Shown piece after piece: positions 1,720 through 30,979 of a DNA stretch of 31,125 bases. The position numbers and the translations under genes were made by a program. Origin of the DNA: a virus. Every line of letters starts with the position of its first letter. Position 1 is the stretch's first letter. The stretch spans positions 1 through 31,125 of the IMG/VR virus record IMGVR_UViG_3300047457_000466; one strand, written 5' to 3'. The notes beneath the pieces are model-generated. The model was not told where the DNA came from. It was given only the letters and a program-made list of their open reading frames with translations, and did no database searches.

Positions 1720-3138
1720 ATGGCCGCTTTAAATTTTCCCGCAACACCAACGGTAGGTCAGGTTTACACTGCTAATGGAAAATCATGGCAATGGAATGGT
1801 ACCGCTTGGCTTGCCTATAATCTTATAACGGCGCTTAGCGGAATTACAATCGACGCGTCACCAATAGGTCAAAATACAGCGGCAGCAGGTAAGTTTACAA
1901 ATCTTGAATACACCGGAACGCTGACTGGCGGGACCGGGGTAATCAACATCGGTTCGGGACAGCTCTATAAGGATGCGGCCGGCAACCTTGGCTTGGGTGT
2001 TACGCCGAGTGGTTGGGGTTCGACATTTAAGGCGCTACAAGGAGGCGCTGGATCTTTATGGTCTTATTCAACATCTGGGTTCGGATTTACTGCTAATGCG
2101 TACAACAATTCTGGGTGGAAATATGTAAATAACGGGTATGCCAATAGCTTTGAAACCGATACGGGCAAATTTGTTTGGTACACCGCCCCCTCTGGCACAG
2201 CAGGAAACGCAATCTCCTTCACTCAGGCGATGACGCTGGATGCGAGTGGGAATCTTAATGTAGCCAATCTTACGGCATCCAGAGCTTTAGCAACTGATGC
2301 TTCTAAAAATCTTGTATCTTCAGCTACCACTTCTACAGAGCTTGGATATGTCTCAGGCGTAACTAGCGCAATTCAAACGCAGTTGAATAGTAAAGCGCCG
2401 TTAACTGGAACCGGAACTTCTGGCTCTTGGCCTATTAATGTTACGGGGTCTTCCGCATCCTGTACGGGTAATGCAGCAACGGCAACCAATGCCACTACAG
2501 CAGGCGGGTTTACTCCATCTCAGTCTTCAGGTACTGCAAATCGAATTGTTGTTGCTGATGCTAGTGGGTACATACAGAACACTTATTACAATTCCACCGA
2601 CAACTCTCAAGCGTCTGGCGTTACGGGCGTTATGGTTAAGGCGGGCGATAACTGGCTAAGGACTGGTACAGCCGCCGCAGTAGCCACTTTTATCAGCGGC
2701 CAAACGATGAACATCTCTGGCTCATCGACTTCGTGTTCCGGCAACGCGGCGACCGCTACGACGGCTTCTTCATGCTCCGGTAACTCAGCAACGGCAACCA
2801 ATGGCGCGAGGGCGTGGGTTTCTTTCGGCGGTGGCGCTAATGGAACCACGGCTGGTGGAATTCTTGCGAGTGGAAGCTTGGGAGTAAGCTCCGTTACATA
2901 CAACGGGACGGGTGATTACACAGTAAACTTCTCGCCCGCGCTATCGAACGCAAATTACACCTATACATTCGGCTTGACCCGCGACATTGCTGGGGGTGGT
3001 GGTGCACAAACAATTTGTAATGACTACGGGGCAACGAAATCTACTACCGCTTTACGGGTGAGGGCAAGTTTCCGCGACGGCGGGAGCGCCGGATACTTTA
3101 ATCCAACTTACATTTACATGGCAATGTTTGCAGCATGA
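1720..3138 (+). CDS. Tail fibre protein
   Basis: A 472-residue tail fibre-type protein. The N-terminus (MAALNFPATPTVGQVYTANG, then Trp-Gln-Trp-Asn-Gly-Thr-Ala-Trp) is the common phage fibre attachment module. The middle is rich in Gly, Ser, Thr and Asn, with short repeats of the type Cys-(Ser/Thr)-Gly-Asn-Ala-Ala-Thr-Ala-Thr, as in long beta-structured fibres. The last 100 residues form a distinct beta-rich tip with Tyr-Thr-Phe and an aromatic C-terminus. GAGG at 1709-1712 lies 7 bases before the ATG, and the stop of the preceding fibre gene overlaps this Shine-Dalgarno. It sits between two other fibre genes, so it probably forms part of the same adhesion apparatus. No intramolecular chaperone or lyase motif was recognised. 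Confidence 0.75.
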   Translation: MAALNFPATPTVGQVYTANGKSWQWNGTAWLAYNLITALSGITIDASPIGQNTAAAGKFTNLEYTGTLTGGTGVINIGSGQLYKDAAGNLGLGVTPSGWGSTFKALQGGAGSLWSYSTSGFGFTANAYNNSGWKYVNNGYANSFETDTGKFVWYTAPSGTAGNAISFTQAMTLDASGNLNVANLTASRALATDASKNLVSSATTSTELGYVSGVTSAIQTQLNSKAPLTGTGTSGSWPINVTGSSASCTGNAATATNATTAGGFTPSQSSGTANRIVVADASGYIQNTYYNSTDNSQASGVTGVMVKAGDNWLRTGTAAAVATFISGQTMNISGSSTSCSGNAATATTASSCSGNSATATNGARAWVSFGGGANGTTAGGILASGSLGVSSVTYNGTGDYTVNFSPALSNANYTYTFGLTRDIAGGGGAQTICNDYGATKSTTALRVRASFRDGGSAGYFNPTYIYMAMFAA

Positions 3139-3401
3139 AAAAATTTATTATTCACCCAAATCCTGACACACCAAATCAAATTTGCTTGGTCTGTCCTGCT
3201 GAAGATTGTAATATCGCTTTGGAAGAAATTGCGAGAAAAGATGTTCCTGCGGGCCTACCTTTTAAGTTTATCGACGAGGCAGATATTCCCCGCGAGTTCG
3301 ATTACTTCGCGGCATACGAGGCTGATTTTAGCAAGCCCGACGGCTACGGTATCGGGCAGGAGGCATGGATCATTGAGCAAGAGGCGAAGCTAGCGAAATG
3401 A
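3135..3401 (+). CDS. Small fibre-associated phage protein
   Basis: An 88-residue protein whose ATG overlaps the stop of the upstream fibre gene (ATGA), indicating translational coupling. The central motif Asp-Val-Pro-Ala-Gly-Leu-Pro-Phe-Lys-Phe-Ile-Asp-Glu-Ala-Asp-Ile-Pro recalls small proteins commonly found just downstream of tail fibre genes in Proteobacteria phages. Two Cys residues occur near the N-terminus. A role in fibre folding or assembly is only an inference from position; the biochemical function is unknown. No signal peptide or membrane segment is visible. Confidence 0.65.
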   Translation: MKKFIIHPNPDTPNQICLVCPAEDCNIALEEIARKDVPAGLPFKFIDEADIPREFDYFAAYEADFSKPDGYGIGQEAWIIEQEAKLAK

Positions 3402-3634
3402 TTACGATCAATCTTGAAAAAGCGAAAGAGATCCACAAGGATATTCTGAGGCAACAGCGCGCACCATTGCTTACTGAACTTGATATTCAGTTTCAGAAAG
3501 CAATTGAGTTTAGTTCAGACCATTCTGCGATTGTCAAGGAGAAGCAACGACTTCGCGACGTTACAAAGCTCTGTGATTCCGTCACGTCCATTGAAGAATT
3601 GAAATCGATCACGTGCAATTCACCGGCTTTGTGA
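3398..3634 (+). CDS. Small helical phage protein, fibre cluster
   Basis: A 78-residue protein, again coupled to its neighbour by an ATGA overlap at 3398-3401. The N-terminus (Met-Ile-Thr-Ile-Asn-Leu-Glu-Lys-Ala-Lys-Glu-Ile-His) and the pattern of amphipathic helices with Arg-Ala-Pro-Leu-Leu resemble a family of short proteins that follow tail fibre genes in many phages. It ends just before the promoter-like element at 3661. The function is unknown; a fibre assembly or chaperone role is possible from context alone. Confidence 0.6.
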   Translation: MITINLEKAKEIHKDILRQQRAPLLTELDIQFQKAIEFSSDHSAIVKEKQRLRDVTKLCDSVTSIEELKSITCNSPAL

Positions 3635-3660
3635 TTAAATCATTTGGTACGGAAAAGGTG

Positions 3661-3695
3661 TATAATTTTACGTAGTTATTCAACCAGAGGTAACG
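3661..3695 (+). promoter_or_regulatory. Candidate promoter and leader hairpin
   Basis: A perfect TATAAT (3661-3666) lies 30 bases before the start of the 50-residue gene. No good -35 box is present at 16-18 bases, so activity would need an activator or a phage factor. After the -10 comes N5-GTAGTT, and GTTA/TAAC can pair so that the AGAGG ribosome site sits in the loop. The same -10, N5, GTAGTT layout occurs at 7335-7351. Confidence 0.35.
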
Positions 3696-3696
3696 T

Positions 3697-3849
3697 ATGA
3701 TTTTTAATCTAGAACAGCATGAAATTGAATCTATTATCGGATTCATTGATAACAACTCTACTACTAGTTCAAATTTTTGGCCTTTGGTCCAAAAACTCAA
3801 ATTTCAATATCAGGAACAGCTTCCAAAGCAAGAAGATCCGCAGGAATAA
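3697..3849 (+). CDS. 50-residue hypothetical protein
   Basis: A short gene encoding 50 residues (Met-Ile-Phe-Asn-Leu-Glu-Gln-His-Glu-Ile-Glu...). AGAGG at 3686-3690 is 6 bases before the ATG, and the gene fills the gap between two structural genes on the same strand. The sequence is acidic and amphipathic, with no membrane segment, Cys or obvious motif, and ends in Gln-Glu-Asp-Pro-Gln-Glu. Similar tiny helical proteins are common in tail-fibre clusters. I do not recognise a function. Confidence 0.55.
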   Translation: MIFNLEQHEIESIIGFIDNNSTTSSNFWPLVQKLKFQYQEQLPKQEDPQE

Positions 3850-3871
3850 TTGTTTTTAATTAGGTGTCCAC

Positions 3872-6190
3872 ATGACGACTTTTGTAGACGGTGAGATTCT
3901 TACCGCCGGTCTTCTAAACGGGGCTCTTCAAGAAGCTTCCCAAGGAGCAACAGGACCTGTTGGGGCTACTGGCCCCACTGGACCCACTGGCCCACAAGGA
4001 GTAGCCGCGACAATTAAAGGTTCTGTGGCCACAGTTGCCGATCTACCGGCTAGTGCTACTGTCAACGATGGTTATATCGTTCTCAGTAACGGTAATCTAT
4101 ACATCTGGAACGGTTCAGCGTGGATCGACGCCGGACAAATTGTTGGCCCTGTTGGCCCTGCCGGTCCAACCGGTCCTTCTGGATTAACAGGAGCCCTGCT
4201 TTGGTTTGGTCTAACACCCCCGACGGATCCAATATCTTATCCGCAATGGTGGCATACTGAATTAGGTGTTCTACTCTCTTATTACACTGATATTGATTCA
4301 GCGCAGTGGATTCAACAGGATACGGCACCGATTGGGCCGATTGGCGCTACGGGACCAACAGGGCCGATTGGCGCTACGGGACCTACTGGCTTAACCGGAA
4401 TTACTGGTCCTACTGGACCGTCTGGAGCGACCGGGCCGTCCGGGTTAGCTTCCTCGGTTCCCGGGCCGACAGGGGCAACCGGGCCATTAGGGCCTTCTGG
4501 ACCTTCTGGACCTGCATCAACAATCCCCGGACCTACCGGAGCAACTGGACCAACAGGCCCGCTTGGTTTAACCGGCGCCACAGGACCGCAAGGCCTAACC
4601 GGAGCGACAGGCCCGACAGGCCCGACAGCTACACTTTCTACTGTGGTTAAAGAATCAAACGGCACCAGTTTTACACCAACACCCACCGAACGTTTGATTA
4701 GTAATATGTTGGGGGACTACGTTAGTGTTTGGGACTTTTACATCGCGGGTCAAACTTATTGGGACACAGCTATTGCAAATGCCCTGTCAGCACTTGGTTC
4801 CGAAGGCGCCCTTTATTTTCCGCCGGGCATTTACAACATCAGCAACCAGATTAATATTACCAACGCGAACGTAACACTAAAAGGTGCCGGAAACGCGACT
4901 ATTATTAGACAAAATACGTCTAACAAACCGATTATAGTTCCTACTGGGGTACGTCTGACGGTATCTGACATGCAACTTACGTATGCATCACAAGGTACCA
5001 GTTCTGGCGGAACATCTGGAGCGGCGATATTAATTACCGCCGGAAACCAAGGGACTTATAACAACCTTTGGATTTACAACGCTTATGTGGGTATGGAATG
5101 CGGGAATGGCGCTAACGTCAATTCAGCAATGAACATATCAATTTATGAATTTACATATGCTGGATTCTATTTCCACGATAACGCTTACAACACAAGTATT
5201 ACAAATTTCTGGATGGGCATTAGCGACGCTGGAATAGCTGCCGGCCTTGGGACACAAGGAAACATCGTTCTAATCAACAGAAATGAAGGACATACCTTTG
5301 TAAATGGGCAAATATATCAAGGTGCAAACGCGCTTTATTGCAACGCGTCTGCTGCGACTTACACAAATTGTCCGTCGTATTGTTTTTTCACAAATGTGTA
5401 TTTTGACAGTGCCACATTAACATCAAACATAACAAAATCAGCATTTTTGTTTTTTACCGGATGCTGGTTTAGTGGCGGAAGAAATCCTTCAAATCCGCAA
5501 CCCGGAGTGTATGTTAACTCGTCTAACAACATAATTTTTTCTAATTGCGGATTTGCAAATAATGGATCGTACGGTGCTCTTGTAGAATCAGGATGCAATA
5601 GAGTTAATTTTAACGCTTGTGAATTTAACAGCAATTCATATTCATCATCTGGAAGCTATGATGGGCTATGCTATGCTAATAACAATACAAACTTTTCAGT
5701 CGTAGGATGTATTTCAAGTAGCGGATTTTTTGCAAACACACAAAGATATGGAATACTGGTTGGTACGGGGTGTACAAATTTTGTGCTAACAGACAATCAG
5801 GTATCCGGAAATCTTTCTGGTGGCATTCAAAACAATTCTATTGGAGATACGGTCCGAGTTTACAGTAATCCCGGCGCAAATGATCTTTTCCAGTATCACG
5901 ACGTAAACGGAGCCCGTTTTTTGACTGGACCAAGCGGTACTGTTTATAATTATCAAAATACCACCGGTAAACCGATTCACGTTGAAGCTTTTGGGATCAG
6001 TGGATCAAACAACAACATGAATATGTGGATCAATTCTTCCAACGGAGGCCTTGGTTCTGGTTACGCGGTAAGTGGCCAATCCGGTACAGCGTGTTCAGTG
6101 TCAAGTTTAGTTCCGCCGGGATGGTGGTATCGTATTGAGTCGCAATCTCCGGGAGCAATGACTTTGCTATCTTGGGGCGAAATGTATTAA
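3872..6190 (+). CDS. Tailspike: collagen-like stem with pectate-lyase-type beta-helix
   Basis: A 772-residue adhesin. Residues 1-20 ([10 protein letters not shown]) form a typical baseplate-attachment start. Collagen-like triplets follow, interrupted at about 44-91 and 105-150 by two modules shared with the fibre at 16-1710, and continue to about residue 251. From about 275 the protein is a right-handed beta-helix of the pectate lyase superfamily: Val-Trp-Asp-Phe, then [10 protein letters not shown], then repeated Asn-rich rungs to about 690, and a small C-terminal cap. Such spikes bind and often cleave capsule or O-antigen, but I cannot identify catalytic residues. The ATG at 3872 follows TAGGTG at 3861-3866. 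Identical 27-base repeats occur around 4335-4380 and could slip. Confidence 0.8.
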
Positions 6191-10804: not shown

Positions 10805-12279
10805 TGTCTAGCGAAATCTTACAAGAGTATTTGGTCAAGCTTGGGTACAAGACTGATACTATATCGCTCGCCAAATTTACCCAGAACCTTACAGGCGTAC
10901 AAAAGCGGGTAACTGCCGCCGGAATCGCCGTTGCGGGTGTGGTTACCACTACCGCCGCAGCTGCAGCCGCTTTCTCTTACTCGATGCGAAAAATGTATTT
11001 TGCCTCCGAGTTAGCCAACAGTTCCGTCAAGAATCTCAAAGGCATGGAATATGCCGGTCAGCAGATTGGGGTATCCGGGGAGGCGATGGCCTCTTCGATA
11101 CACGACATGGCTCAGGCTCTTCGTCTCAATCCGGGTTTGACTGGATTTTTAAATAGCCTCGGTGTCCCAGTAACTGGCAGGGACATGAGCGATGTTATGG
11201 TTGACCTCGTCGCCGCTCTGTCAAAAATGCCGGAGTATCAAGCAACACAAATTGCAGGTATGTTTGGGATTAGCCCAGATGAATATCACCAGATGGTGAA
11301 TCATCTCGATACCCTCCTCGAAAAGAAAAAGGAGCATGCCGAGCTGTATCAAAAGATGGGTGTTGACGTTGATGCCGCAAAAAAGACGGTTCTTGAATAT
11401 ACTCAAATCCTCGATAACCTCAAAGTTCGGATTGAGATTCTAGGCGAAGCGATTTTGATGCATTTTGTTGCCCCGTTCAAGGAAGCTACAAAATGGTTAG
11501 ACGAATCAATGTCCGACATGTCGAAATGGATAACTGGGGATATGACCTCGGGAGACATGTTCGACGATTTAGCCACGAAAGCTAAGCATGGGGTAGAAAC
11601 CGCGCAGAGGGAAATTGACGCGCTCCATCCGGGAGGCCTTGCCGGTTCTGCGCTGGGTAAATTAATTTCTCGTGGCGAAGGTGGATACGGCTCTGTCAAC
11701 CTTGGAAAAGCCGGGAATTACCGAGCCGGTAAACGCGACCTCGAAAACATGACCGTTTCGCAGGTTATGGCCGCTCAGCGTTCTGGTGAATTTAATGCGG
11801 TAGGCCGTTACCAGCTGATCAAAGGGACACTCGCTGACGCGGTTAAAGACCTCGGCCTGTCTGGTTCAGAGAAATTTGATAAAGCGACGCAGGATATGAT
11901 TTTCGAAAAATATCTGTTGTCGCATAAACAAAAGGCCATCGGGGACTACCTGAGCGGTAAAACTGATGACATTGTCGGAGCGGCAGCTGCAGCAGCCCGC
12001 GAATGGGCGAGCATAGCTGATCCATTTACGGGACAAAGTCATTACGCCGGCGTTGCAGGTAACAGGGCCTCAGTGTCTCCACGTGAGATTATGGGGGCCT
12101 TAGAAACTACGCGGCTTGGTCTTCAGCAAGGTGCCGGCCAGCAGGGCGTTCAAGTCACACAAAACAATACTTTTAATGTGACCGGTACAGAGGCTAAAAA
12201 GATAGCCGAAGAAATCGCTACCCAACAGGATCGTGTGAACGCCAATACCGTGCGCCAGTTTAAGGAGAGAGCTCGATGA
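10804..12279 (+). CDS. Tape measure protein with lysozyme-like domain
   Basis: A 491-residue tail length protein. Residues 1-37 are amphipathic, 38-57 form an Ala/Val-rich hydrophobic segment, and 65-270 are largely helical. A lysozyme-like domain spans about 284-430, with Ile-Ser-Arg-Gly-Glu292-Gly-Gly-Tyr-Gly-Ser-Val-Asn as the likely catalytic loop and Ala-Val-Gly-Arg-Tyr-Gln-Leu-Ile at 332-339, a pattern typical of phage muramidases. The C-terminal 60 residues are polar and end in Asn-rich and charged helices. At about 0.15 nm per residue the length predicts a short tail near 74 nm. The peptidoglycan-cutting domain would help local wall penetration at ejection. Catalysis is inferred from the motif, not proven. 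Confidence 0.8.
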   Translation: MSSEILQEYLVKLGYKTDTISLAKFTQNLTGVQKRVTAAGIAVAGVVTTTAAAAAAFSYSMRKMYFASELANSSVKNLKGMEYAGQQIGVSGEAMASSIHDMAQALRLNPGLTGFLNSLGVPVTGRDMSDVMVDLVAALSKMPEYQATQIAGMFGISPDEYHQMVNHLDTLLEKKKEHAELYQKMGVDVDAAKKTVLEYTQILDNLKVRIEILGEAILMHFVAPFKEATKWLDESMSDMSKWITGDMTSGDMFDDLATKAKHGVETAQREIDALHPGGLAGSALGKLISRGEGGYGSVNLGKAGNYRAGKRDLENMTVSQVMAAQRSGEFNAVGRYQLIKGTLADAVKDLGLSGSEKFDKATQDMIFEKYLLSHKQKAIGDYLSGKTDDIVGAAAAAAREWASIADPFTGQSHYAGVAGNRASVSPREIMGALETTRLGLQQGAGQQGVQVTQNNTFNVTGTEAKKIAEEIATQQDRVNANTVRQFKERAR

Positions 12280-12971
12280 CAGGTTTAGCCGGGATAGTCA
12301 CCGCCGCAGCCGCATTTGGTAGCTCTGCCATTTTAGTCTCTCCGCAAAGAGGCTTTTATAATTTGACGCTGCCGGATGGCTCTTTTCTACCCAGTATTGC
12401 CGCTCAGGCTACTGTCGAAGAAAAACATTTAGATGAAATGGAAATCACGGAGCATCCAGTTGAACAGGGCGCCGCCATTACTGACCACATGTATAAGCTC
12501 CCGGCGCGCGTCTCACTTCAACTTGGATGGTCAGATAGTTTCAGCCTATCCAGCGGAATGCTCGGGTCCACCGTTAATTCTGTGGCCATCAACGGTCCAA
12601 GCGCGTTGGTTGATAGTGCCGGCGGACCCGGCCCAACTACGCAGTCTTTAATTACTGGCTCAGGAGTCTTGGGTATACGAGCCATTTATGATAAGTTGCT
12701 TGAAATGCAGCAGCTTAGAACGCTTTTTACCCTTTATACCGGAAAGCGCGTTTACCGAAACATGGTGTGTCGGTCACTTTCGACGGTTAGCGACTTTCGT
12801 AACGCCCACACCCTACCCGTTACAATGGAGTGTCAGGAGGTTATCCTTGTCAATACCCGGACGGCCCCATTGCCGGCTAGCCAACAAGCAAACCCTAGTG
12901 CCACAGCCTCTCCGGTAAATAAAGGCATTCAGTCTCCCTCCCCGGTCGCTTCTGGAGTTACAAGCCGATGA
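12276..12971 (+). CDS. Dit-like baseplate / distal tail protein
   Basis: A 231-residue protein coupled to the tape measure by an ATGA overlap. The core (Glu-Lys-His-Leu-Asp-Glu-Met-Glu-Ile-Thr-Glu-His-Pro-Val-Glu-Gln-Gly-Ala; Ile-Thr-Asp-His-Met; Leu-Pro-Ala-Arg-Val) matches the Dit-like N-terminal domain of phage baseplate proteins, which closes the tube end and organises the hub. The middle contains Arg-Thr-Leu-Phe-Thr-Leu-Tyr-Thr-Gly-Lys-Arg, as often seen in the family. The last 35 residues are a Pro/Ser/Ala-rich linker with low complexity. The N-terminus is Ala-rich and hydrophobic. Confidence 0.7.
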   Translation: MTGLAGIVTAAAAFGSSAILVSPQRGFYNLTLPDGSFLPSIAAQATVEEKHLDEMEITEHPVEQGAAITDHMYKLPARVSLQLGWSDSFSLSSGMLGSTVNSVAINGPSALVDSAGGPGPTTQSLITGSGVLGIRAIYDKLLEMQQLRTLFTLYTGKRVYRNMVCRSLSTVSDFRNAHTLPVTMECQEVILVNTRTAPLPASQQANPSATASPVNKGIQSPSPVASGVTSR

Positions 12972-21251: not shown

Positions 21252-22205
21252 CTATCCTCGTAGGCCGGAAATGGCCCCGCGTATATTTTCGCCAAAGAAT
21301 AAGGACGGGCTAGCACCTTCCCCAAAGCACCAGCGAGTCGCGACATCCTGAAGAAGCCGCATCTGCTTGATGTTGTAGACCCCAGTCCCATCCAGCCCAG
21401 TAACTTGAACTGCTGACGAGGCGTCTTCGGTATCCCCTGTGGCTATCATTCCGGGGCTGAAGTAAACACGGCCCATGTCATCGGCGAAAGGTTCAATCTT
21501 TTCCAGCCCTACCCACAAGTCTTCTGGGATGTGCTTCAAGTTCGGTACTCGCATGTTTAACACACGAGACACGTCAGGCCAGTCAGTTGAATTGAGATTG
21601 GTCCTAAGCCAACGCTTTCCCGGAAAATGAAAAGTGCAGCTCGTCTCAGTCATCTGCAGCGAAATAGGCTCTTCCCCGATACGGACTAATTCGACCACAG
21701 CAGAGCGCGGAATGTTAATTTCGACAGGAAATGAATAGCCCAGCCAATGCTCTACCAGATTGATATTGTTTGTCGCAAAGGCTGATTGGCCTCGGAGGAG
21801 AATTCCCCGCGCCCAAGGCCGAGAGGCGTCTTCGGCAATGAAAGGTAACAGTTTTTTTAAAACGTCTCGAATACCCCGCGACAGGGGGATTTCTTCTCCC
21901 TCCGGAAGCACTTCGGGGAAGTCCGTTGGGAGACATTCGATCTGCGCACGGAACTTGCCGGACTTAATGGAGAGCCGCCCGGTAGCCGTTACATTCAGCT
22001 GAATAGTTTCATCACAGCTCTGTATAGCTTTGACGAACGGAACGGCCTTCGGACTGACATCCAAGTCGAAGTCGATAGGGCTGCAAAGACTAAGATGCCC
22101 ATTGAAACCTCTAATTGTTTTGTTGGTGATGTTGAAATGGGTTAGCTCCGGCACAAAGCCTTTTCGAGCCACAGAACCTTGGACAAAACGAATAGCGTCT
22201 AACAT
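21252..22205 (-). CDS. DnaN-like sliding clamp
   Basis: A 317-residue protein that reads as a beta-clamp relative: Ala-Arg-Lys-Gly-Phe-Val-Pro-Glu-Leu-Thr-His-Phe near the start (first clamp domain), Gly-Lys-Phe-Arg-Ala-Gln-Ile-Glu-Cys-Leu-Pro, and domain-repeat-like beta strands over the length. E. coli DnaN is 366 residues, so this is a compact version. Processivity for the family A polymerase downstream is the natural role. No clamp loader is in the window. The start overlaps the DpdA stop (TAATG). Similarity is by overall pattern, not by a diagnostic motif, so confidence is moderate. Confidence 0.6.
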   Translation of the reverse strand: MLDAIRFVQGSVARKGFVPELTHFNITNKTIRGFNGHLSLCSPIDFDLDVSPKAVPFVKAIQSCDETIQLNVTATGRLSIKSGKFRAQIECLPTDFPEVLPEGEEIPLSRGIRDVLKKLLPFIAEDASRPWARGILLRGQSAFATNNINLVEHWLGYSFPVEINIPRSAVVELVRIGEEPISLQMTETSCTFHFPGKRWLRTNLNSTDWPDVSRVLNMRVPNLKHIPEDLWVGLEKIEPFADDMGRVYFSPGMIATGDTEDASSAVQVTGLDGTGVYNIKQMRLLQDVATRWCFGEGASPSLFFGENIRGAISGLRG

Positions 22206-23134
22206 TAGAAGAGTCCTATCTGAGCGCCTTGGTACACGGGGTTCCCCGCCTTCTCAGCGGTGATGGTATCCCCCAGTAAAGTGTAAGCGTAGATGTTGTA
22301 ACACCAACGGCTAAGGTATTCGGTCTGAAGGCGTTCCGGGTCACCCCCATAAGAGCGAATACGCTCCTCGACGGCATCTCGCAATACCGGGGCGAAAGTA
22401 GTCAGATGTTGGTTTTCGATTCTCTTTGACGGACTCTGGGATGATACACTTACTACGTTCGCGCCGGGAAGAAGCAAGATACCACCGGCCGCGGCTACTT
22501 GGACCCATGAAGATGAGTCTGTGGAAAACCACGGATACCGGCGCATCATTTCCGGTTTTGTAAGACCGAAGCCATGGACCCGGGTCTTCGCCCGGCCAGC
22601 TCCGTCAATCATGTATTTTTCCCAAATCATATCCAGCCAAGGACGGACTAGATTATCTGGTTTACCGACAAGACCTCCGATGGTAATCGAGGTGTAGTTC
22701 GCAACATAATACTCGAGGTAGCGTGGGTCTTCCCCATAGTGAAAGCAGGGAAGAGGACGAACCCCTAGCTTTTCCATCGCCTTCTGATTTTCAAAAGTCT
22801 TCTGGTCATCGCCGATAGCATCAAGAACCGAGGCCCACAGATCCCCGTCGACCTTTAACAGGATGTCATCGTTCTCCTTGATGTAATGGCAGTAACTGGG
22901 GAGGTCTACTGAAACACCTTTAGACCAAGCCGAGAAAGCTCCAGAGTCAAGAAATACTTGAACACCATCTTTCCGCATACGATCCACGTAAGCTTGTCGA
23001 TGAACGTAGTGATAAGACTCCAGCAGATTTTTCGCATACAGCCTCTGGTATCTCTCGTACTCCGTGCAGCGGGCGAAAAGCCGCCCGCCCACGTCAAAAT
23101 TCGAAGTATACAAACCGGCTAAGAAAAGTTTCAT
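22205..23134 (-). CDS. dpdA: DpdA-type 7-deazaguanine DNA transglycosylase
   Basis: A 309-residue protein of the tRNA-guanine transglycosylase superfamily. Key positions: Phe-Leu-Asp63-Ser-Gly-Ala-Phe-Ser-Ala-Trp matches the base-binding Asp-Ser-Gly-Gly-Phe loop of TGT; Thr-Ile-Gly-Gly-Leu155 matches the Gly-Gly-Leu loop; and Phe-Ser-Thr-Asp206-Ser-Ser-Ser-Trp is the likely nucleophile site. The C-terminal Cys-x-Cys-xx-Cys zinc site of tRNA TGT is absent, as in phage DpdA proteins. It would exchange guanine in phage DNA for a 7-deazaguanine base. Start and stop overlap both neighbours (ATGA, TAATG), linking it with a DenV-like glycosylase and a clamp. The proposed DNA role follows from family and operon; which base it inserts is open. 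Confidence 0.85.
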   Translation of the reverse strand: MKLFLAGLYTSNFDVGGRLFARCTEYERYQRLYAKNLLESYHYVHRQAYVDRMRKDGVQVFLDSGAFSAWSKGVSVDLPSYCHYIKENDDILLKVDGDLWASVLDAIGDDQKTFENQKAMEKLGVRPLPCFHYGEDPRYLEYYVANYTSITIGGLVGKPDNLVRPWLDMIWEKYMIDGAGRAKTRVHGFGLTKPEMMRRYPWFSTDSSSWVQVAAAGGILLLPGANVVSVSSQSPSKRIENQHLTTFAPVLRDAVEERIRSYGGDPERLQTEYLSRWCYNIYAYTLLGDTITAEKAGNPVYQGAQIGLF

Positions 23135-23523
23135 AATTCGAAAGAAACAACTCTGGGTTCAACAGGTGCGAGACCTGTAAGTAATCCATCCTCAGCCTGC
23201 AGGTCATGATACCGGGCTTGGCATTCCGGGCACCGGCGAATAAGCTCCGCTAACGAAGCCATCCGGTCAATCGGATTGTCTGGAAGATGGTCCAGCGGAA
23301 CCACATCAAGAGGACTCTTGTGGTTATACCCACGCCATTCCATTTCGTTGACAAGGTCTTCATGGCGCTGGTACAAGGACTCCGGCTCGAACAACTTGTC
23401 CCGGAGATAACCCTGTACAGAGATACCCCGTTTGAGCGTCCCTACAAGCATATGTAATTCCACGTGTTCACCAAGAAGATGCTGGCGGCACATAATCATC
23501 GGGTCAACCATCCACATTCTCAT
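23131..23523 (-). CDS. Pyrimidine-dimer DNA glycosylase, DenV-like
   Basis: A 130-residue protein starting Met-Arg-Met-Trp-Met-Val-Asp-Pro, with Gln-His15-Leu-Leu-Gly-Glu-His-Val-Glu22-Leu. This aligns with Gln-His-Leu-Met-Ala-Glu-Tyr-Arg-Glu-Leu of T4 endonuclease V (138 residues), putting Glu22 at the catalytic Glu23 position. Basic residues and Tyr-Asn-His-Lys-Ser follow, and the C-terminus has Arg-Arg-Cys-Pro-Glu-Cys. T4 DenV uses the amino group of Thr2; here residue 2 is Arg, so chemistry may differ. It would remove UV dimers from phage DNA. It precedes dpdA with an ATGA overlap. CGGAGAAAGACG supplies the ribosome site. Confidence 0.6.
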   Translation of the reverse strand: MRMWMVDPMIMCRQHLLGEHVELHMLVGTLKRGISVQGYLRDKLFEPESLYQRHEDLVNEMEWRGYNHKSPLDVVPLDHLPDNPIDRMASLAELIRRCPECQARYHDLQAEDGLLTGLAPVEPRVVSFEL

Positions 23524-23602: not shown

Positions 23603-24493
23603 TCATTTGTGTGATGCAAGCGACAGGAATTCCGCCCGGGCTGACGGGGTGTCTTTCAGGACTCCGCGTAGCGCAGATGTAACCGTTGAATGGCCCTGCT
23701 GGCAGATACCCCTAGACTCCATGCAAAGGTGGCGAGCTTGGATAACTACACCCACACCTTTCGGATCAAGGCCGTCCACCAAAGCGTCGGCAATCTGGTT
23801 AGTCAACCGCTCTTGAACCTGCAATCGGCGTGCAAAGATATCCACAAGGCGGGACAGCTTTGACAGGCCAACGATTTTTCCGTCTGGGATGTATGCAACG
23901 GTGGCCGTTCCAAAGAACGGGGCCAAATGATGCTCACATTGAGAATAGAATGGGATGTCCCTAACCACGACCATTTCATCACAACGGTCAGCCCCATCCT
24001 CAAAGACTTTGAGCACTTCCATTGGGTCCCGGGTGTATCCGGATGTCCAATGCTTCCAAGCCTTGGCTACGCGCTTCGGTGTTTCCAGCAGACCACCTCG
24101 CGCCGGATCTTCCCCAAAGAATTGCAGAAGACGGATGATGTTATCTTCGATGCTTCCTTCTGCATTTCCTTCCCAAGGAAAGACAAGCCATTCATACTCG
24201 AATCTACCGAAAGCCTTTGTGATGAGGGCGTAGAATGGTTTCTGGGGAAAACGCTTATACCAATGGTCCGCGGTAGTCCCAGAATCGATAAGATCATCAA
24301 GGAAGAAATCAGCGTCTTCCGCTGTATCCACAATGACCATTTCGGGAAGGTATTTCGCTAAAGCGTAAGCTGCTGGGACACCACCGCGGGGAATGGGGTA
24401 GCAACGGCGAGTTGCCAAAGGAAGCTCATTCTCAATACGTGCCGCCAAGTCTATGGCGAGCTCAGCTATTTCAACATTAGATAGATGATACAT
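23603..24493 (-). CDS. folE: Bifunctional Gpt-like phosphoribosyltransferase / GTP cyclohydrolase I
   Basis: A 296-residue fusion. Residues 1-110 form a type I phosphoribosyltransferase: Pro35-Arg-Gly-Gly, the PRPP loop Asp66-Asp-Leu-Ile-Asp-Ser-Gly-Thr-Thr74 and Trp-Leu-Val-Phe-Pro-Trp, close to the end of E. coli Gpt (Gln-Pro-Trp-Asp). Residues about 113-296 are GTP cyclohydrolase I: Glu-Thr-Pro-Lys-Arg-Val-Ala, Ser-Gln-Cys186-Glu-His-His189-Leu, Gly-Leu-Ser-Lys-Leu-Ser-Arg, Arg-Arg-Leu-Gln-Val-Gln-Glu-Arg-Leu and Cys257. Zinc ligands are present (Cys186, His189, Cys257). FolE makes dihydroneopterin triphosphate from GTP, the first step to preQ0. The salvage domain could raise guanine nucleotide supply from degraded host DNA; that is an inference. 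It sits 6 bases after queD. GAGG precedes the ATG. Confidence 0.85.
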   Translation of the reverse strand: MYHLSNVEIAELAIDLAARIENELPLATRRCYPIPRGGVPAAYALAKYLPEMVIVDTAEDADFFLDDLIDSGTTADHWYKRFPQKPFYALITKAFGRFEYEWLVFPWEGNAEGSIEDNIIRLLQFFGEDPARGGLLETPKRVAKAWKHWTSGYTRDPMEVLKVFEDGADRCDEMVVVRDIPFYSQCEHHLAPFFGTATVAYIPDGKIVGLSKLSRLVDIFARRLQVQERLTNQIADALVDGLDPKGVGVVIQARHLCMESRGICQQGHSTVTSALRGVLKDTPSARAEFLSLASHK

Positions 24494-24499
24494 AAGACC

Positions 24500-24952
24500 T
24501 CAAACAGCAAGGTGAGCTGAAGCGGAACATTTACGGGTTTCTTCAATTTCAACTGAAATGAGGAAAGCTCCAGTACCGACAAGTTGCATGGGACCAATGG
24601 TATGAAGCAGATGCTCAGCCATGTTCTCCGCAGTTGGGTTAAAGGGTACCCAGACCACAGATTCTTCGACCATTTGCCCGGACTGGGTATCTACCGCAGC
24701 ATAACGCAGCGTTTGCATTAACGGGTCGTCTTCCCACGCCAAGAATTTATGATCCCAATTATCCTCGAGCCACATGCACAGCTTTTCTTTAATGACTGAA
24801 AAGTCGAGAACGCGCCCAATTCCATCAAGCTCGTTGGCTTCCACGGTAAAATGAATGCGGTAGTTATGTCCGTGTAGATGAGCACACTTACTTTCATGGT
24901 TGTGGACTCGATGCCCTACCGAAATGTCATGATAGCGTTTCGCAGTAATCAT
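24500..24952 (-). CDS. queD: 6-carboxy-tetrahydropterin synthase QueD
   Basis: A 150-residue QueD/PTPS-type enzyme that converts dihydroneopterin triphosphate to 6-carboxy-tetrahydropterin. The active site is clear: zinc ligands His14, His27 and His29 (His-Leu-His-Gly-His-Asn-Tyr), catalytic Cys23 four positions before the HGH motif, Asp67-His68 (Trp-Asp-His-Lys-Phe-Leu) and a late Glu137 in Val-Glu-Ile-Glu-Glu-Thr. A central insertion at about 75-100 makes it longer than the E. coli protein (121 residues). Its ATG overlaps the stop of queC (TAATG type). It is the second of four pathway genes, co-transcribed with queE, queC and folE. Confidence 0.9.
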   Translation of the reverse strand: MITAKRYHDISVGHRVHNHESKCAHLHGHNYRIHFTVEANELDGIGRVLDFSVIKEKLCMWLEDNWDHKFLAWEDDPLMQTLRYAAVDTQSGQMVEESVVWVPFNPTAENMAEHLLHTIGPMQLVGTGAFLISVEIEETRKCSASAHLAV

Positions 24953-25734
24953 CAGAGGCCACCATCAAAGCAGTCAAGCTGGAGATTTTTATAGTTGTCC
25001 GTATCCGGGAGCTCCATCAGACCTTCCCGATGCGCGCGAAGTACCAATGGGTCCGGGTAACCAGCTTCAAGGAATCCCTGCGCCCTAAGAACATTGGAAT
25101 GATTCATCCCGGTCGGCGGATAGATCCCATCATAGCTTGTGTGGCTATAAGCCAGCGCTTCCCAGCAACCGGGGAGTTCCCGGGCAAGAAGAACGGACTG
25201 AGCCTTACTCAACATCAGGAGCGGGGCGTAGATTTCAATCCGGGGTGTTCCACGATGGTCATGGCCGAGGGCGGTGTTGATGTAGTTCTCCGTGGCTTCA
25301 AGGAAAACCAGTCGGCAGTCATCGTAGTTGGCGTTGTCCATCTGGCAGACACCAGTCACGATGTTTTGGATACCCAAAGCTTCCGCCCGGTTCGCTGCGA
25401 TGGTCAGGAATAAAGCATTGCGCATAGGCACAAAAGTCAGCTCCCGACGATTCCCGATAGTTGCGTCCATCTGCTCGAAGCTATCGTATTCTTCTAGTTC
25501 GTTGTCGCTGGTAAGCGGGCTAACCGAAACCAAACAGTTTGGGACTTTTACAAATTCATGGGTTATAACGCCGGCCATCTCCCCCACTTTTAAAGCGGCT
25601 TCCAGCTCAAGACTATGGCGCTGACCGTAATCAAACGTAATAGCGTGAATCTCATCAAACGTTTTCTGCGCCCAGAAAAGGCACGTTGTTGAATCTTGCC
25701 CACCGCTAAGAACAACTAAGGCTTTTGTAGTCAT
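24952..25734 (-). CDS. queC: 7-cyano-7-deazaguanine (preQ0) synthase QueC, variant zinc site
   Basis: A 260-residue ATP-dependent synthase that turns carboxy-deazaguanine into preQ0. The start is the ATG at 25734, which overlaps the queE stop and has GGAG upstream; an in-frame extension to 25806 lies within queE and is rejected. The PP-loop Ser10-Gly-Gly-Gln-Asp-Ser15, Tyr-Gly-Gln-Arg-His and Phe-Val-Pro-Met-Arg-Asn are all present. The region that normally holds the four zinc Cys (about 196-220) reads Tyr-Ser-His-Thr-Ser-Tyr-Asp-Gly-Ile-Tyr-Pro-Pro-Thr-Gly-Met-Asn-His, with no Cys at those positions. Hence zinc binding is changed or absent. Whether the product is preQ0 remains an inference. 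Confidence 0.85.
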   Translation of the reverse strand: MTTKALVVLSGGQDSTTCLFWAQKTFDEIHAITFDYGQRHSLELEAALKVGEMAGVITHEFVKVPNCLVSVSPLTSDNELEEYDSFEQMDATIGNRRELTFVPMRNALFLTIAANRAEALGIQNIVTGVCQMDNANYDDCRLVFLEATENYINTALGHDHRGTPRIEIYAPLLMLSKAQSVLLARELPGCWEALAYSHTSYDGIYPPTGMNHSNVLRAQGFLEAGYPDPLVLRAHREGLMELPDTDNYKNLQLDCFDGGL

Positions 25735-26468
25735 TATGGAGCTCCAATGTATTTGTGAATTTGAAGTTGAAGGGTATAGCCGTGCTTGTAACAAGACTCG
25801 ATGCATGCCGCAAGATTAGCATCGTCTTTTTCCATGTCCCGTTCATCCACAGGTTGCAGGTAAACCGTGTGCTCGAAGTCTTCGGGCGGTCTAGCCAGCC
25901 TTGGATGCGCCGGATGGTTCAGGGCTCTGCCCGGGAGCCCGTCTTCGCAGATGGATTCCATTGTGGCCACATACTTATAGGCGCAGGCCGCTTCGGTAAT
26001 GCTGGGATGAACTGTCCCGGTTTTCGGGCTGACTACAATGTAGACACCTTCTTTTAAACCGGTATCCTTTTCAAGATACATGGCCGGGAACCGGGAAGGG
26101 AGCGCCATAGTACCATTGGTTTCGATCTGAACAAAAAAATCGAGGCCAAGCAATTGGAAGACAAGATTACTGAGATTTTGCCGGAAAGGCTCACCACCAG
26201 TAATCACTACAAGCCTAGTTTTGTTTGATGCTGTTAGTTCCAACACGTTGTCAACAATTTCACCGGATGGGAGTTCCTTGCGGCCTTCGGTGTAATCGGT
26301 ATCACAGAGTGGGCATTGAAGATTGCATCCAGCTAGCCGGATAAAAACAGCGGGGACTCCACAGAATGGACCCTCGCCTTGGATAGTATGAAATATGCTG
26401 TGTACGTCTAAAAAAACCCCGGTTTGCGGGGCTTTCTTTTCTGGTTCTTGAGTATTAGTTTTTAACAT
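25734..26468 (-). CDS. queE: 7-carboxy-7-deazaguanine synthase QueE (radical SAM)
   Basis: A 244-residue radical SAM enzyme. Gly-Cys48-Asn-Leu-Gln-Cys52-Pro-Leu-Cys55-Asp-Thr-Asp is the short CxxxCxxC cluster site; Thr-Gly-Gly-Glu-Pro at 90-94 binds SAM; Ile-Phe-His-Thr-Ile-Gln-Gly-Glu-Gly precedes the cluster as in QueE proteins; and the end has Leu-Gln-Pro-Val-Asp-Glu and His-Lys-Tyr-Ile-Gly. It contracts carboxy-tetrahydropterin to carboxy-deazaguanine. The first 20 residues are a polar extension, and the matching DNA holds a terminator-like hairpin (26,410-26,431). GGAAG lies 8 bases before the ATG. Its stop overlaps the queC start. Confidence 0.9.
   Translation of the reverse strand: MLKTNTQEPEKKAPQTGVFLDVHSIFHTIQGEGPFCGVPAVFIRLAGCNLQCPLCDTDYTEGRKELPSGEIVDNVLELTASNKTRLVVITGGEPFRQNLSNLVFQLLGLDFFVQIETNGTMALPSRFPAMYLEKDTGLKEGVYIVVSPKTGTVHPSITEAACAYKYVATMESICEDGLPGRALNHPAHPRLARPPEDFEHTVYLQPVDERDMEKDDANLAACIESCYKHGYTLQLQIHKYIGAP
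26410..26431 (-). terminator. Terminator-like hairpin inside the start of queE
   Basis: On the - strand CCCCG-CAAAC-CGGGG is followed by seven T's, the form of an intrinsic terminator. It lies about 40-60 bases after the queE start codon, inside codons for Ala-Pro-Gln-Thr-Gly-Val-Phe. Ribosomes on the early codons would block the hairpin, so it could act as a translation-dependent attenuator of the queE-queC-queD-folE operon. This is a sequence-based inference. Confidence 0.45.
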
Positions 26469-26521: not shown

Positions 26522-26809
26522 TTACTCTGCAGCCGCAGTCTTTTCGGTGGGCTCTTTACCCAGATTGTGGAACTTACGCCACTGGCCGTACTGCGTAGCG
26601 GCCGTTGAAACGTTGATGTCAGCCTTGGTGGCTTCAGCAAGAACGTCTTTGCGAGCGGCCGGGGCCTGAAGCTTTGCGCTCAGAGCATCGGCGATGTCCC
26701 ATACCTTTGCAGTCTTGGTACCGGCGTTTGGACGGACAACGCCGTTCTGAACAACCTTTTCAGGCTTCGGGGCTTTTTCTTTCTTGGGGGCTTTCACTTC
26801 TTCGGTCAT
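26522..26809 (-). CDS. Small protein with HTH-like domain (paralogue 1)
   Basis: A 95-residue protein. The first 25 residues are rich in Lys, Pro and Glu (possible nucleic-acid-binding or disordered tail). Residues about 31-82 form the shared domain: Ala-Lys-Val-Trp-Asp-Ile-Ala-Asp, then Arg-Lys-Asp-Val-Leu, then Asp-Ile-Asn-Val-Ser-Thr-Ala-Ala-Thr-Gln-Tyr-Gly-Gln-Trp-Arg-Lys. The helix-turn-helix-like spacing resembles a small DNA-binding module. Two neighbours on the same strand, at 26,902 and 27,390, carry the same domain. It is preceded by a promoter-like region with a palindrome. I recognise similar sequences among phage hypothetical proteins but know no function. Confidence 0.7.
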   Translation of the reverse strand: MTEEVKAPKKEKAPKPEKVVQNGVVRPNAGTKTAKVWDIADALSAKLQAPAARKDVLAEATKADINVSTAATQYGQWRKFHNLGKEPTEKTAAAE

Positions 26810-26839
26810 GATTTACTCCATTGGATTGGGGGTTGAAAG

Positions 26840-26869
26840 GTTCTTAAATAAGAACACAAACCTATATTA
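26840..26869 (-). promoter_or_regulatory. Candidate promoter and palindromic operator
   Basis: A perfect 7-base palindrome (GTTCTTA-AA-TAAGAAC, 26840-26855) lies 9 bases downstream of a TAATAT -10-like box (26864-26869) on the - strand. No good -35 is visible. The position, from about +2 to +18 of the predicted transcript, suits a repressor operator for the 95-residue gene and the que operon. Confidence 0.35.
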
Positions 26870-26901
26870 GCGAAACTCAAAACTTCTGGATAGTTCCTTT
26901 A

Positions 26902-27390
26902 CTAAAAATTTTGATGCTTCCACTTGCTAAGCTGGACTTGAGCGGTTGCAGGATTGATCCCGGCGTTCGCGCATTCCTCTAAAACACGGGCTCTAAATAA
27001 AGGCCAGCCATGCTCGAGGATGCTTTTATGTTCTGTGGCTATCTCCCAGACCTTAGCCGTGGCCCCAGTGCGGGGTTTCTCCTTTGTGGCAGGCTCTTCT
27101 TGAGGCGTTACCGCAAAGGCCGGGACTTTCTTACGGGGCTTAATTAAAAGCGCCAATTCGGTTGAAGCTTTAACCAAGGCTTCTCGGTTAAGCTGGCCGC
27201 GCCACTGCGTCGACGCCAGCTTCTCATATACGGTTAACATGGCGAAAGCATCGAAAGCATCGAAGAGATGGTCAATCCGAGAAATGCTCGCCGCCATAAT
27301 GGAATTGTCCACCATCACATCGCAGAGGTAGGAGAAATTCTCCGAAGCCTCCACGATGCTCATGGTTGAATGATCGATGAGATAAAACAT
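26902..27390 (-). CDS. Protein with C-terminal HTH-like domain (paralogue 2)
   Basis: A 162-residue protein whose start overlaps the stop of paralogue 3 (TAATG). The first 85 residues are an uncharacterised, mostly helical domain (Phe-Tyr-Leu-Ile-Asp-His; Ile-Asp-His-Leu-Phe-Asp-Ala-Phe). A polar linker follows, and residues about 107-162 match the shared domain: Ala-Lys-Val-Trp-Glu-Ile-Ala, Arg-Ala-Arg-Val-Leu, Ala-Gly-Ile-Asn-Pro-Ala-Thr-Ala-Gln. The conserved Trp-Glu-Ile-Ala and Ala-Gly-Ile-Asn patterns link it to its neighbours. No known family assigned. Confidence 0.7.
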   Translation of the reverse strand: MFYLIDHSTMSIVEASENFSYLCDVMVDNSIMAASISRIDHLFDAFDAFAMLTVYEKLASTQWRGQLNREALVKASTELALLIKPRKKVPAFAVTPQEEPATKEKPRTGATAKVWEIATEHKSILEHGWPLFRARVLEECANAGINPATAQVQLSKWKHQNF

Positions 27391-27962
27391 TACTTTTTGG
27401 TCAGGAAGTATTGAAGCTGGGTACGGGCTGTATTATAAGCGACCCCGGCAGCAACACACCGGTCGAGGATAGCCTTACGCTTAACCGAAGGATCAGCCTT
27501 GGTCATCTCGTCAGCGATTTCCCAAACACGCTGACAGGGGCGAACTGTCGTGCTTACACGCTCTACTTTACCTGCTTCCTTTTTCGCTTTCGGAGAGGCC
27601 TGTTTTTCTTCCCGGTGTTCCCAGCCGCAAGCATGACATCCGATTACGGAGTCTTCATTGATTACAAGACCGATGCCACCACTGCCGGGCTGACACTCAC
27701 CCATATACAATTCAGTCGAACCGCAATCCGGGCAACGATCCGTATTCATTCCTTTAAATTCGCCGACGATGCGGCTGGGGGCGTCGAAGTCAATATCAGT
27801 ATCGGCTACCGCAGCGTACTGGGCGAGCTCCGCGAGCTCTTCATCGAAGCCCCATGTACCATCAGCGAGCTTGTAAAGGAGCTGGTCCGCTCTTTCAAGA
27901 GCCTTGTCACCGACAGACTTGAGCGCACGACGAGCATTAGACTTAGAGGAAAAGGTCTTCAT
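27390..27962 (-). CDS. Zinc-ribbon protein with HTH-like domain (paralogue 3)
   Basis: A 190-residue protein, first in the group. It has a Lys/Arg-rich N-terminus, an acidic stretch, then a zinc-ribbon-like pair: Cys77-Pro-Asp-Cys80 and Cys109-His-Ala-Cys112. Residues about 140-190 are the shared domain: Gln-Arg-Val-Trp-Glu-Ile-Ala-Asp, Lys-Arg-Lys-Ala-Ile-Leu, Ala-Gly-Val-Ala-Tyr-Asn-Thr-Ala-Arg-Thr-Gln. Together with the two paralogues below, it suggests local duplication and domain shuffling. It starts 40 bases downstream of promoter copy B, with no other gene between. DNA or RNA binding is likely from the zinc ribbon plus HTH-like module, but unproven. Confidence 0.7.
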   Translation of the reverse strand: MKTFSSKSNARRALKSVGDKALERADQLLYKLADGTWGFDEELAELAQYAAVADTDIDFDAPSRIVGEFKGMNTDRCPDCGSTELYMGECQPGSGGIGLVINEDSVIGCHACGWEHREEKQASPKAKKEAGKVERVSTTVRPCQRVWEIADEMTKADPSVKRKAILDRCVAAGVAYNTARTQLQYFLTKK

Positions 27963-29124: not shown

Positions 29125-29307
29125 TTAAAATGGGATGTCGATTTCCCATTCCTCAAGGCAGGAATAAACGATGGTCTCGGCTGGGGGCCGAACTCCCCAG
29201 TGCCGGCAGGTTTCGGTCTTTAAATCGAAAAGGGCGCAGTTAAGACAGCTCCGGTCGATGAACCGTTCAATGAGCATCCGGTGGATGCTGGGGTCCCGCA
29301 TCATCAT
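29125..29307 (-). CDS. Small Cys-motif protein
   Basis: A 60-residue protein from the ATG at 29307, with AAGG upstream; the gene overlaps the helicase 3' end. The pattern Cys-Leu-Asn-Cys-Ala-Leu-Phe, Thr-Cys-Arg-His-Trp-Gly, Pro-Pro, Ser-Cys-Leu-Glu-Glu-Trp-Glu-Ile-Asp-Ile-Pro-Phe is a motif I associate with a widespread small phage protein, probably metal-binding (4 Cys). An upstream in-frame ATG would add 14 residues, deeper inside the helicase gene. Function unknown. Confidence 0.6.
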   Translation of the reverse strand: MMMRDPSIHRMLIERFIDRSCLNCALFDLKTETCRHWGVRPPAETIVYSCLEEWEIDIPF

Positions 29308-30979
29308 GGTCGCCTTCGGAGAATGTTTGTCCGGTGTAGTCATAGCCAATTACCTCGTCAAATGATTTCTTATGTTGAACCCGGATGTTAACCGGAATGC
29401 GTAAGTCATCCACATAAGTCATGGCCTCAGTCGTTGTGTTCGGGACCAAGATAGTCCCGGCCCGCTCACGCCACCACTGGTGCGCTTTATGTTTTGGATA
29501 GCCCTGATGTTCAAAGCATACCCATTCACGAAACATGGATAGCCCGCAGAAGTAAGACACCTGCATGGATGGGGGCCGGCCCTCTTTTTCGTGGATTCGA
29601 TAGGTGACCCTGTCTACCTTCAGGTCTGAAATACGGATGGTGGCATCTGCTATAAGAGCGGCAGTCCCGGCCTCGTGTTCGATCTTAACATCTTTTGGAA
29701 ATTCATCAAGGCAGTTAGTGCAGAACCGGACGCTGGCGTGATTGTATGTCATACAGGCCGGACACACCTTAATGGGGGCCATGCCCTTCCCTTTGCCTTT
29801 CCCTTTTTTCTTGGGCAGTATCGGATCATTGATTGGCCCCAGTCTTCGAGAATTCCCGGCAAAGTCCATGACCAACGTATTTTGTTTAGGACCCTGCTTA
29901 ATGGCCTCCAGCCGCCCCTGCGGACCGGATAAATCAAACCCCGGAGCATAAACCGGACGCGTCCCACGCCCCAGCATTTGTACCCACAAAGAGGCTGAAT
30001 GCGTTGGTCTAAGCACCCCGATAAGGTCGATGCCCGGAAAGTCAAACCCTGTGGTTAAAATCCCATTGTTTACGACCGCTTGGTAGTAGCCAGCTTTGAA
30101 TCCATCAATGCGGGCATCCCGGAGCTCGGTGCTAATCTTCGAGTGAACGTAAGTGGCCCTGATTCCGTATTCCAAAAGGATGTCGGTGACATGCTCTGCG
30201 TGCTCTATGCCTGAAGCGAAGATGAGCCAATGGTTCCGGTTGACCCCATGCTCCACCATCTCGGCTACAGCCGCCCGGGTAACGGCATCTTGGTCAACAG
30301 CCGCCTGCAATTCATTTTGCTTGAATTCCCCGCCAGACAAATGAACCCCGCTAACGTCTAATTCGAGCGCGGTCATCTTCGGCACCAGCATACTCAGGTA
30401 GCCTTGATTCAACAGCCAGTTAAAAGACTCCAAGTCTGTCAGGTCGAAGGCCAAGTCCGTAAACAGCTGGCCGGGATCGGTAAGCATCCCGGTGCCCATC
30501 CGGTAAGGAGTCGCTGTCAGCCCGACAACTTTCAGATAGGGATTAGTTTCTTTTAAGCCAGCAATGACTTTTTGATACTGGGTAGTATTTTTTGGGGAAA
30601 GCAGATGACATTCGTCAATAAGCAACAAGTCTATGCGACCGAAAATTTCAGGATCTGCATTGGCTACCGTTCCAATGCCGCCGAACACTATGGGGTTTCC
30701 GGTGTCTTTCCGTTTAAGGCCAGCTGAATAAACTCCGGCCGGGGCCGTAGGCCAGAGCTGGAGGAACCGCTCGTAATTCTGTTCGATAAGCTCTTTGCTG
30801 TGAGTCAGCTTCATGATCCGTGTACCGGGATACTGGTAACAAGCCCGCTGAATGAAGCTGGCTATGACTACGCTCTTCCCGGTCCCGGTGGGCAGAGCAA
30901 TAATAGGATTGCCCGACTTCTTGGCGAAATAGGTGAAAAGGCTGTCGACCGCGGCCTCTTGGTAATCCCGGAGTATCAT
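29267..30979 (-). CDS. SF2 DNA/RNA helicase, DECH-box, ResIII-like
   Basis: A 570-residue helicase. Motif I Pro30-Thr-Gly-Thr-Gly-Lys-Ser36, motif II Asp122-Glu-Cys-His125, motif III Thr154-Ala-Thr-Pro157, and motif VI Gln-Met-Leu-Gly-Arg-Gly-Thr-Arg-Pro near 334-342 are present. A Lys/Gly stretch at 390-399 is followed by a zinc ribbon (Cys406, Cys409, Cys420, Cys423) and a C-terminal domain of about 140 residues without a known signature. The family includes type III restriction-like translocases and phage replication helicases such as UvsW-type. It is probably used in replication, recombination or DNA repair. Its ATG overlaps the stop of the upstream gene (TAATG). No nuclease motif was seen. 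Confidence 0.85.
   Translation of the reverse strand: MILRDYQEAAVDSLFTYFAKKSGNPIIALPTGTGKSVVIASFIQRACYQYPGTRIMKLTHSKELIEQNYERFLQLWPTAPAGVYSAGLKRKDTGNPIVFGGIGTVANADPEIFGRIDLLLIDECHLLSPKNTTQYQKVIAGLKETNPYLKVVGLTATPYRMGTGMLTDPGQLFTDLAFDLTDLESFNWLLNQGYLSMLVPKMTALELDVSGVHLSGGEFKQNELQAAVDQDAVTRAAVAEMVEHGVNRNHWLIFASGIEHAEHVTDILLEYGIRATYVHSKISTELRDARIDGFKAGYYQAVVNNGILTTGFDFPGIDLIGVLRPTHSASLWVQMLGRGTRPVYAPGFDLSGPQGRLEAIKQGPKQNTLVMDFAGNSRRLGPINDPILPKKKGKGKGKGMAPIKVCPACMTYNHASVRFCTNCLDEFPKDVKIEHEAGTAALIADATIRISDLKVDRVTYRIHEKEGRPPSMQVSYFCGLSMFREWVCFEHQGYPKHKAHQWWRERAGTILVPNTTTEAMTYVDDLRIPVNIRVQHKKSFDEVIGYDYTGQTFSEGDHDDAGPQHPPDAH

Follow-up and report, generated by a model that had tools for sequence, protein, structure and literature searches.

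Tandem phage paralogues beside a preQ0–DpdA cassette share a predicted HTH-like domain that may accompany base-modified DNA

The locus reported here encodes a DNA transglycosylase, DpdA, that belongs with the 9g/CAjan type, as distinct from the nt-1 type, which is the DpdA2 of Hutinet et al. (PMC6884629). CAjan has been used for dpdA genetics (PMC6884629), which suggests that under laboratory conditions the phage can do without the modification; according to a statement cited in PMC8306585 the modification of CAjan is motif-specific, at GA or GGC, and the title of a reference gives one modified motif for Iggy. The small proteins that we describe below belong to a domain family that is nameless in the main family databases, and the papers we consulted do not discuss them.

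We analysed a window of 31,125 nt (positions 1 to 31,125 of the IMG/VR virus record IMGVR_UViG_3300047457_000466), a 31 kb record carrying myovirus-type tail genes. A gene for a RadD-like helicase (29267..30979, minus strand) forms the upstream border of the cassette and is followed by a few small ORFs and then by the three domain genes. Downstream of these, on the same strand, come a QueE-like radical SAM enzyme, the first gene of the preQ0 cassette (25734..26468; domain match and synteny), QueC (24952..25806; PF06508, E 6e-48), QueD (24500..24952) and FolE, the GTP cyclohydrolase I (23603..24493), the last two recognized by family-database matches. A pyrimidine-dimer DNA glycosylase-like gene (23131–23523; PF03013) sits between FolE and DpdA (22205..23134; PHROG 887), and a sliding-clamp-like DNA polymerase processivity factor (21252..22205; PHROG 947), the downstream border, precedes the DNA polymerase. 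The window DpdA is 45–55% identical to DpdA of the 9g/CAjan type and, judged by sequence, groups with this type and not with the nt-1 type. The complete FolE–QueD–QueE–QueC–DpdA set predicts base-modified DNA in the window phage, and the domain proteins would be made together with the enzymes of preQ0 synthesis and insertion.

The three tandem paralogues described in the first-pass annotation are present as minus-strand ORFs: P95, of class A (95 aa, 26522..26809), P162, of class B (162 aa, 26902..27390), and P190, of class C (190 aa, 27390..27962), the ATG of P162 overlapping the stop of P190. P95 as the sole query against the window matched P162 and P190, with E values of 3.3e-6 and 6e-4, and nothing else. 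When 4000 shuffled versions of P162 and P190 were included in the database, P162 scored E 6.2e-5 with no shuffled copy listed, and P190 as a single sequence fell below the pass level. Profile–profile alignment of classes A, B and C with hhalign gave probabilities of 98.5–99.4% and E values of 2.8e-15 to 7.7e-22. The shared domain, with the signature VWxIAD...GINxxTAxTQYxxWRK and the recognition-helix motif TQYxxWRK, covers residues 35–81 of P95 (26567..26707, from the P95 search and profile alignment), 113–162 of P162 (26905..27054) and 145–190 of P190 (27393..27530), the latter two from the AF2 models and profile alignment; VWxIAD...TQYxxW was found in all three proteins. The common block of about 50 residues noticed at first pass is thereby upheld by both the single-sequence and the profile searches, and, in place of independent known families, sequence comparison identifies the three genes as one homologous family with a single domain type on different partner parts.

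These partner parts differ, as had been noted before, except that the N-terminal part of P162 is predicted to be an alpha/beta domain and not purely helical. P95 consists of a short K/P-rich N-terminal tail, a 'QNGVVRPNAGTKT' linker, the HTH-like domain and a short tail, and has no more than a slight basic excess (17 K+R versus 12 D+E). The near neutral or acidic P162 and P190 carry the HTH-like domain at the C terminus, preceded in P190 by an N-terminal 'MKTFSSKSNARRA' domain and a zinc-ribbon-like segment (about residues 76–117, 27612..27737). The proposed zinc ribbon fits the CxxC...CxxC pattern and a Lar-like match but is modelled at low confidence, and membership of the Lar restriction-alleviation family fell below both the Pfam (PF14354, E 0.022, 15.4 bits against a cut-off of 28.6) and the NCBIfam (TIGR03655, 13.1 against 39.6) thresholds. 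Pfam and NCBIfam searches of the three proteins gave nothing above cut-off, and a PDB sequence search gave no convincing relative. Matches were obtained to PHROGs 18634, 11298, 21588, 7864, 22313, 28664 and 17772, all function-less families (best for P95, phrog_18634, E 1.5e-17). The PHROG families agree with classes A, B and C in sequence but are split, and the common domain, the three architectures and the tie to modified DNA are absent there. An FtrA-domain annotation of class A found no support in the literature.

AlphaFold (AF2) models of P162 and P190 agree with the HTH-like fold suspected at first pass, the domain being modelled as tri-helical at a pLDDT of about 97–98. In P162 (mean pLDDT 90.6; domain near 98; N terminus alpha/beta) the helices span residues 110–120, 129–142 and 147–161, and in P190 (domain 97–98; N-terminal 50 residues 85–96; zinc-ribbon segment 56–68) residues 142–156, 162–171 and 176–189, with helix pLDDT of about 96–98 in both proteins. 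We infer a tri-helical, HTH-like domain in which helix 2 and a short turn lead to a recognition-like helix 3, and because of this predicted fold the family probably binds DNA. A Foldseek search of the PDB returned no significant structural match (E at least 1.4), which we count against our main reading, given below. Among the weak PDB hits of P190, DNA-binding proteins of the HTH and homeodomain kinds are prominent (FapR, LrpC, TnpE, Pax5 and homeodomains), and viral structure matches include proteins from R7M- and Iggy-type que phages.

We scanned sequence collections with class A, clamp and DpdA queries; for the class A query on the viral collection, 107 of 109 pattern matches were relatives. 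The order helicase – domain genes – queE-C-D-folE-dpdA – clamp – polymerase recurs in VpKK5, PSASB_03, RHEph04, Iggy, BcepGomr, CAjan (homologue AJT60531), 9g, ART and others. Across 121 distinct viral loci, the helicase-to-queE interval holds three domain copies in 58, two in 42 and one in 21; C-B-A is the commonest gene order, and class A adjoins queE in 111 loci, with 6 more unclassified. The whole records checked of phages with a 9g-type DpdA carry 2–5 domain copies each, and a few of these copies lie close to the primase or beyond the polymerase. Class A has K/A/E-rich tails, class B an alpha/beta domain and class C a small N-terminal domain, in some cases together with a zinc ribbon. Class A is essentially phage-borne, since genome contigs of bacteria and archaea gave its pattern at only four loci, each of which has the complete cassette.

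Several of these records have peculiarities of their own. The annotated class A starts of VpKK5 (11872–12267 of the extracted locus) and RHEph04 (11884–12486) are signal-peptide-like, and the true starts may lie downstream. The 349 kb Schizotequatrovirus record of Vibrio phage V07 contains, at about 278–290 kb, a Vibrio-siphophage-like helicase–domain–que–dpdA–clamp segment and is possibly a chimeric assembly. At locus L176 the RadD-like helicase ORF (2711–5404, 898 aa) has an intein-like insertion following 'ALPTGCHAKGQRILMFDGSLRCVEDIKVGD', and in Rhizobium phage RHph_X3_2 (MW960033.1, 40781–41683) the DpdA match contains one in-frame TGA near its end.

The co-occurrence with dpdA and que genes proposed at first pass proved very strong. 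Among loci gathered mostly by the domain, 91 of 94 have QueE; of the three others, two carry DpdA at another place in their record and one is a fragment of 5 kb. Every one of the 154 loci from the clamp and DpdA scans has DpdA, and 130 have the domain within the locus. A search of 15 whole records, 14 from this set plus L038, revealed, away from queE, three copies in L178, three in L176 and five in L224, and two copies in L038; the other 11 are fragments of 11–38 kb, cut near the que genes, in which absence of the domain carries no weight as evidence. The domain was thus present in every whole-searched record of adequate length with a 9g-type DpdA, including CAjan, 9g and Iggy. Annotated phage records, compared as counts by host genus (near-equal for domain and DpdA) and not record by record, number 151 for the domain, 152 for DpdA at coverage of at least 80%, 361 for the clamp and 1026 for the helicase; the domain thus keeps pace with DpdA and not with the clamp or the helicase. 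Phages with DpdA of other clades (Bipper, Godines, Dp-1, phiSM, Epa33 and Mufasa8) had the domain in 0 of 6 records, the identical search finding 14 of 14 positives. Modified DNA does not in general need the domain, since the modified-DNA phages of Mycobacterium and Cellulophaga and Streptococcus phage Dp-1 are without it.

That the domain and DpdA of the 9g type nearly always occur together would also be expected if the proteins were DpdA partners that help to choose or open target sites, in place of the ParB-like DpdB which other Dpd systems have. In keeping with this, DpdA of other clades often adjoins a ParB-like gene, ParB_N (PF02195) was found in 0 of 15 domain-bearing phage records against 3 of 6 others, with no Pfam match in the three window proteins, and CAjan modification is, as cited above, motif-specific. 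However, in E. coli 9g DpdA needs no partner other than Gat-QueC to convert about 18% of the G in plasmid DNA (PMC6884629), a sufficiency that disfavours a required role in DpdA catalysis, and phage BP63 has class A without DpdA. Nor does copy number follow motif number, an idea we dropped: CAjan and Iggy both have two copies, against two motifs and one, respectively, as given in citing papers. We regard partnership with DpdA as quite unlikely.

BP63 belongs to the Rosemountvirus/Loughboroughvirus group, which carries class A without dpdA or queC. In Rosemountvirus BP63, fHy-Eco03 and S144 class A lies at the helicase locus. The BP63 protein, BP63_59 (class A, phrog_28664), reads NGV..PAAGT...VWDLADK...SSQLTYWRK plus a K/A/E tail, and its gene comes directly behind the helicase plus one small gene, with genes for a MazG-like protein, thymidylate synthase, the clamp and the polymerase next in line; a relative is present in 63 records, and neither DpdA nor QueC was found in BP63. 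This profile-search result, missed by tblastn, led us to drop strict exclusivity to que/dpdA phages. The DNA of fHy-Eco03 was cut by 1 of 10 enzymes, from which its authors inferred a modification of unidentified kind (PMC8145870), and for S144 SspI and PacI were the only enzymes that cut the DNA, which was called modified (PMC7432712). Because these phages have the domain without que/dpdA and their DNA is reported as modified, the tie to modification genes claimed at first pass holds for the que/dpdA association but is better put as a tie to modified-DNA phages; by restriction data from few phages, the family goes along more closely with modified DNA than with DpdA. Near class A in BP63 (32000–46000) and S144 lie genes for thymidylate synthase/dCMP hydroxymethylase-like and MazG-like proteins, PHROG 36727 and dCMP deaminase, which are candidates for the reported modification.

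A stronger version of this tie would make the domain a dedicated module for base-modified DNA, a set of paralogues with one DNA-binding head and varied partner domains that would recognise motifs with the modified base or direct the enzyme that installs it. We put this forward tentatively, as a doubtful extension; if true, the family would serve both the 7-deazaguanine phages and the Rosemountvirus/Loughboroughvirus modification, and the domain would flag novel modifications.

Proteins with an HTH-like domain could also regulate transcription of the que/replication operon in the ordinary way, reading operator sites without modification and autoregulating through the palindrome GTTCTTA-AA-TAAGAAC (26840..26855), their link to modified DNA being operon membership only. 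The palindrome, reported at first pass, is present upstream of P95, between P162 and P95, and in the closest relative its arms are kept and its spacer changed. The domain genes also come first in the operon, with a sigma-70-like promoter candidate, TTGATG-18-TATAAT, upstream of P190 (28009..28038, minus strand), a consensus match of a kind whose total number shows no excess over shuffles. As a general operator of the family, however, the palindrome finds no support: arms of at least 7 occur in 6 of 144 regions upstream of class A, against 4.4 expected. Copies relocated from queE are still retained, and the 'transcriptional activator' names given to class A by several annotators derive from low-complexity similarity and not from experiments. 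Such a purely regulatory role on unmodified operators seems to us rather unlikely. At a separate locus, L103, a perfect 18-bp inverted repeat with a 5-nt loop lies immediately 5′ of the class A gene (ORF 4713–5108).

Replication genes flank the locus, and the family may have been carried along with a single lineage of phages and their replication module, doing a job in replication or recombination unrelated to the modified base. In a mirror-tree comparison, meant to probe contact with DpdA, class A distances correlate best with those of the helicase (0.56) and the clamp (0.49), the fit to the helicase being no worse than that to DpdA; the partial correlations are 0.34 for the helicase, 0.26 for QueC, probably distorted by Gat-QueC fusions, 0.21 for DpdA, 0.17 for the clamp and 0.12 for QueE. 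Yet five phages outside Rosemountvirus that have the helicase–clamp–polymerase backbone without que/dpdA (SCUT-S4, Yut1, RcSpartan, PSV3 and GEC_K2) showed the domain in 0 of 5, DpdA being absent as well, whereas cassette-bearing phages keep the domain wherever it is located. We consider mere passage with the replication module unlikely. Restriction digests of Septimatrevirus, sought as an unmodified-DNA control, were not found in the literature.

The K/A/E-rich tails of class A, together with the detection of its homologue gp60 in purified particles of fHy-Eco03 (PMC8145870), might indicate histone-like proteins that compact DNA and are possibly packaged with the genome. The same particles, though, contained 48 of 81 fHy-Eco03 proteins, including helicase and thymidylate synthase (PMC8145870), P162 and P190 range from nearly neutral to acidic, and the tails of P95 are only short, so that we hold a compaction role to be improbable.

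We prefer to read the proteins as a small phage HTH-like family that goes with base-modified DNA and probably binds the modified DNA of its own phage in a regulatory or architectural capacity, a reading to which we give an even chance. Against it stand the absence of the domain from modified-DNA phages of other lineages, the apparent dispensability of modification in CAjan and the class A distances, which fit the helicase no worse than DpdA. Position 7 of guanine (N7) sits in the DNA major groove, and because modification there would change this groove, host HTH proteins may bind modified phage DNA poorly. The family proteins would instead bind it and regulate or organise transcription and replication; both the preference for modified DNA and the regulatory or architectural role are inferred. 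If the proteins do read or handle modified DNA, they would account for the way in which a phage operates its genome once the major groove has changed and may bear on how DpdA modification stays confined to motifs, and the Rosemountvirus link offers a concrete pointer to genes around the DNA modification reported there.

Compared with known systems, the domain resembles HTH and homeodomain-like DNA-binding domains in its predicted tri-helical fold with a recognition-like helix 3, but differs in signature and gave no significant sequence or structure match to these families. In Mycobacterium, Cellulophaga and Arthrobacter phages (L269, L270, L272 and L274), DpdA adjoins a ParB-like gene, as DpdB does in bacteria. 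DpdB, the ParB-like partner of bacterial DpdA (PMC12839542), is like the family in being encoded by a gene that accompanies DpdA and in possible DNA handling. The domain family differs in having no ParB_N, no ATPase and another fold. TF1 of phage SPO1 is HU-like, and we claim no homology between it and the family. Going by the title of a paper cited in PMC8306585, site-specific binding by TF1 needs hydroxymethyluracil DNA, and the analogy lies only in the proposed idea of a phage protein that binds its phage's modified DNA.
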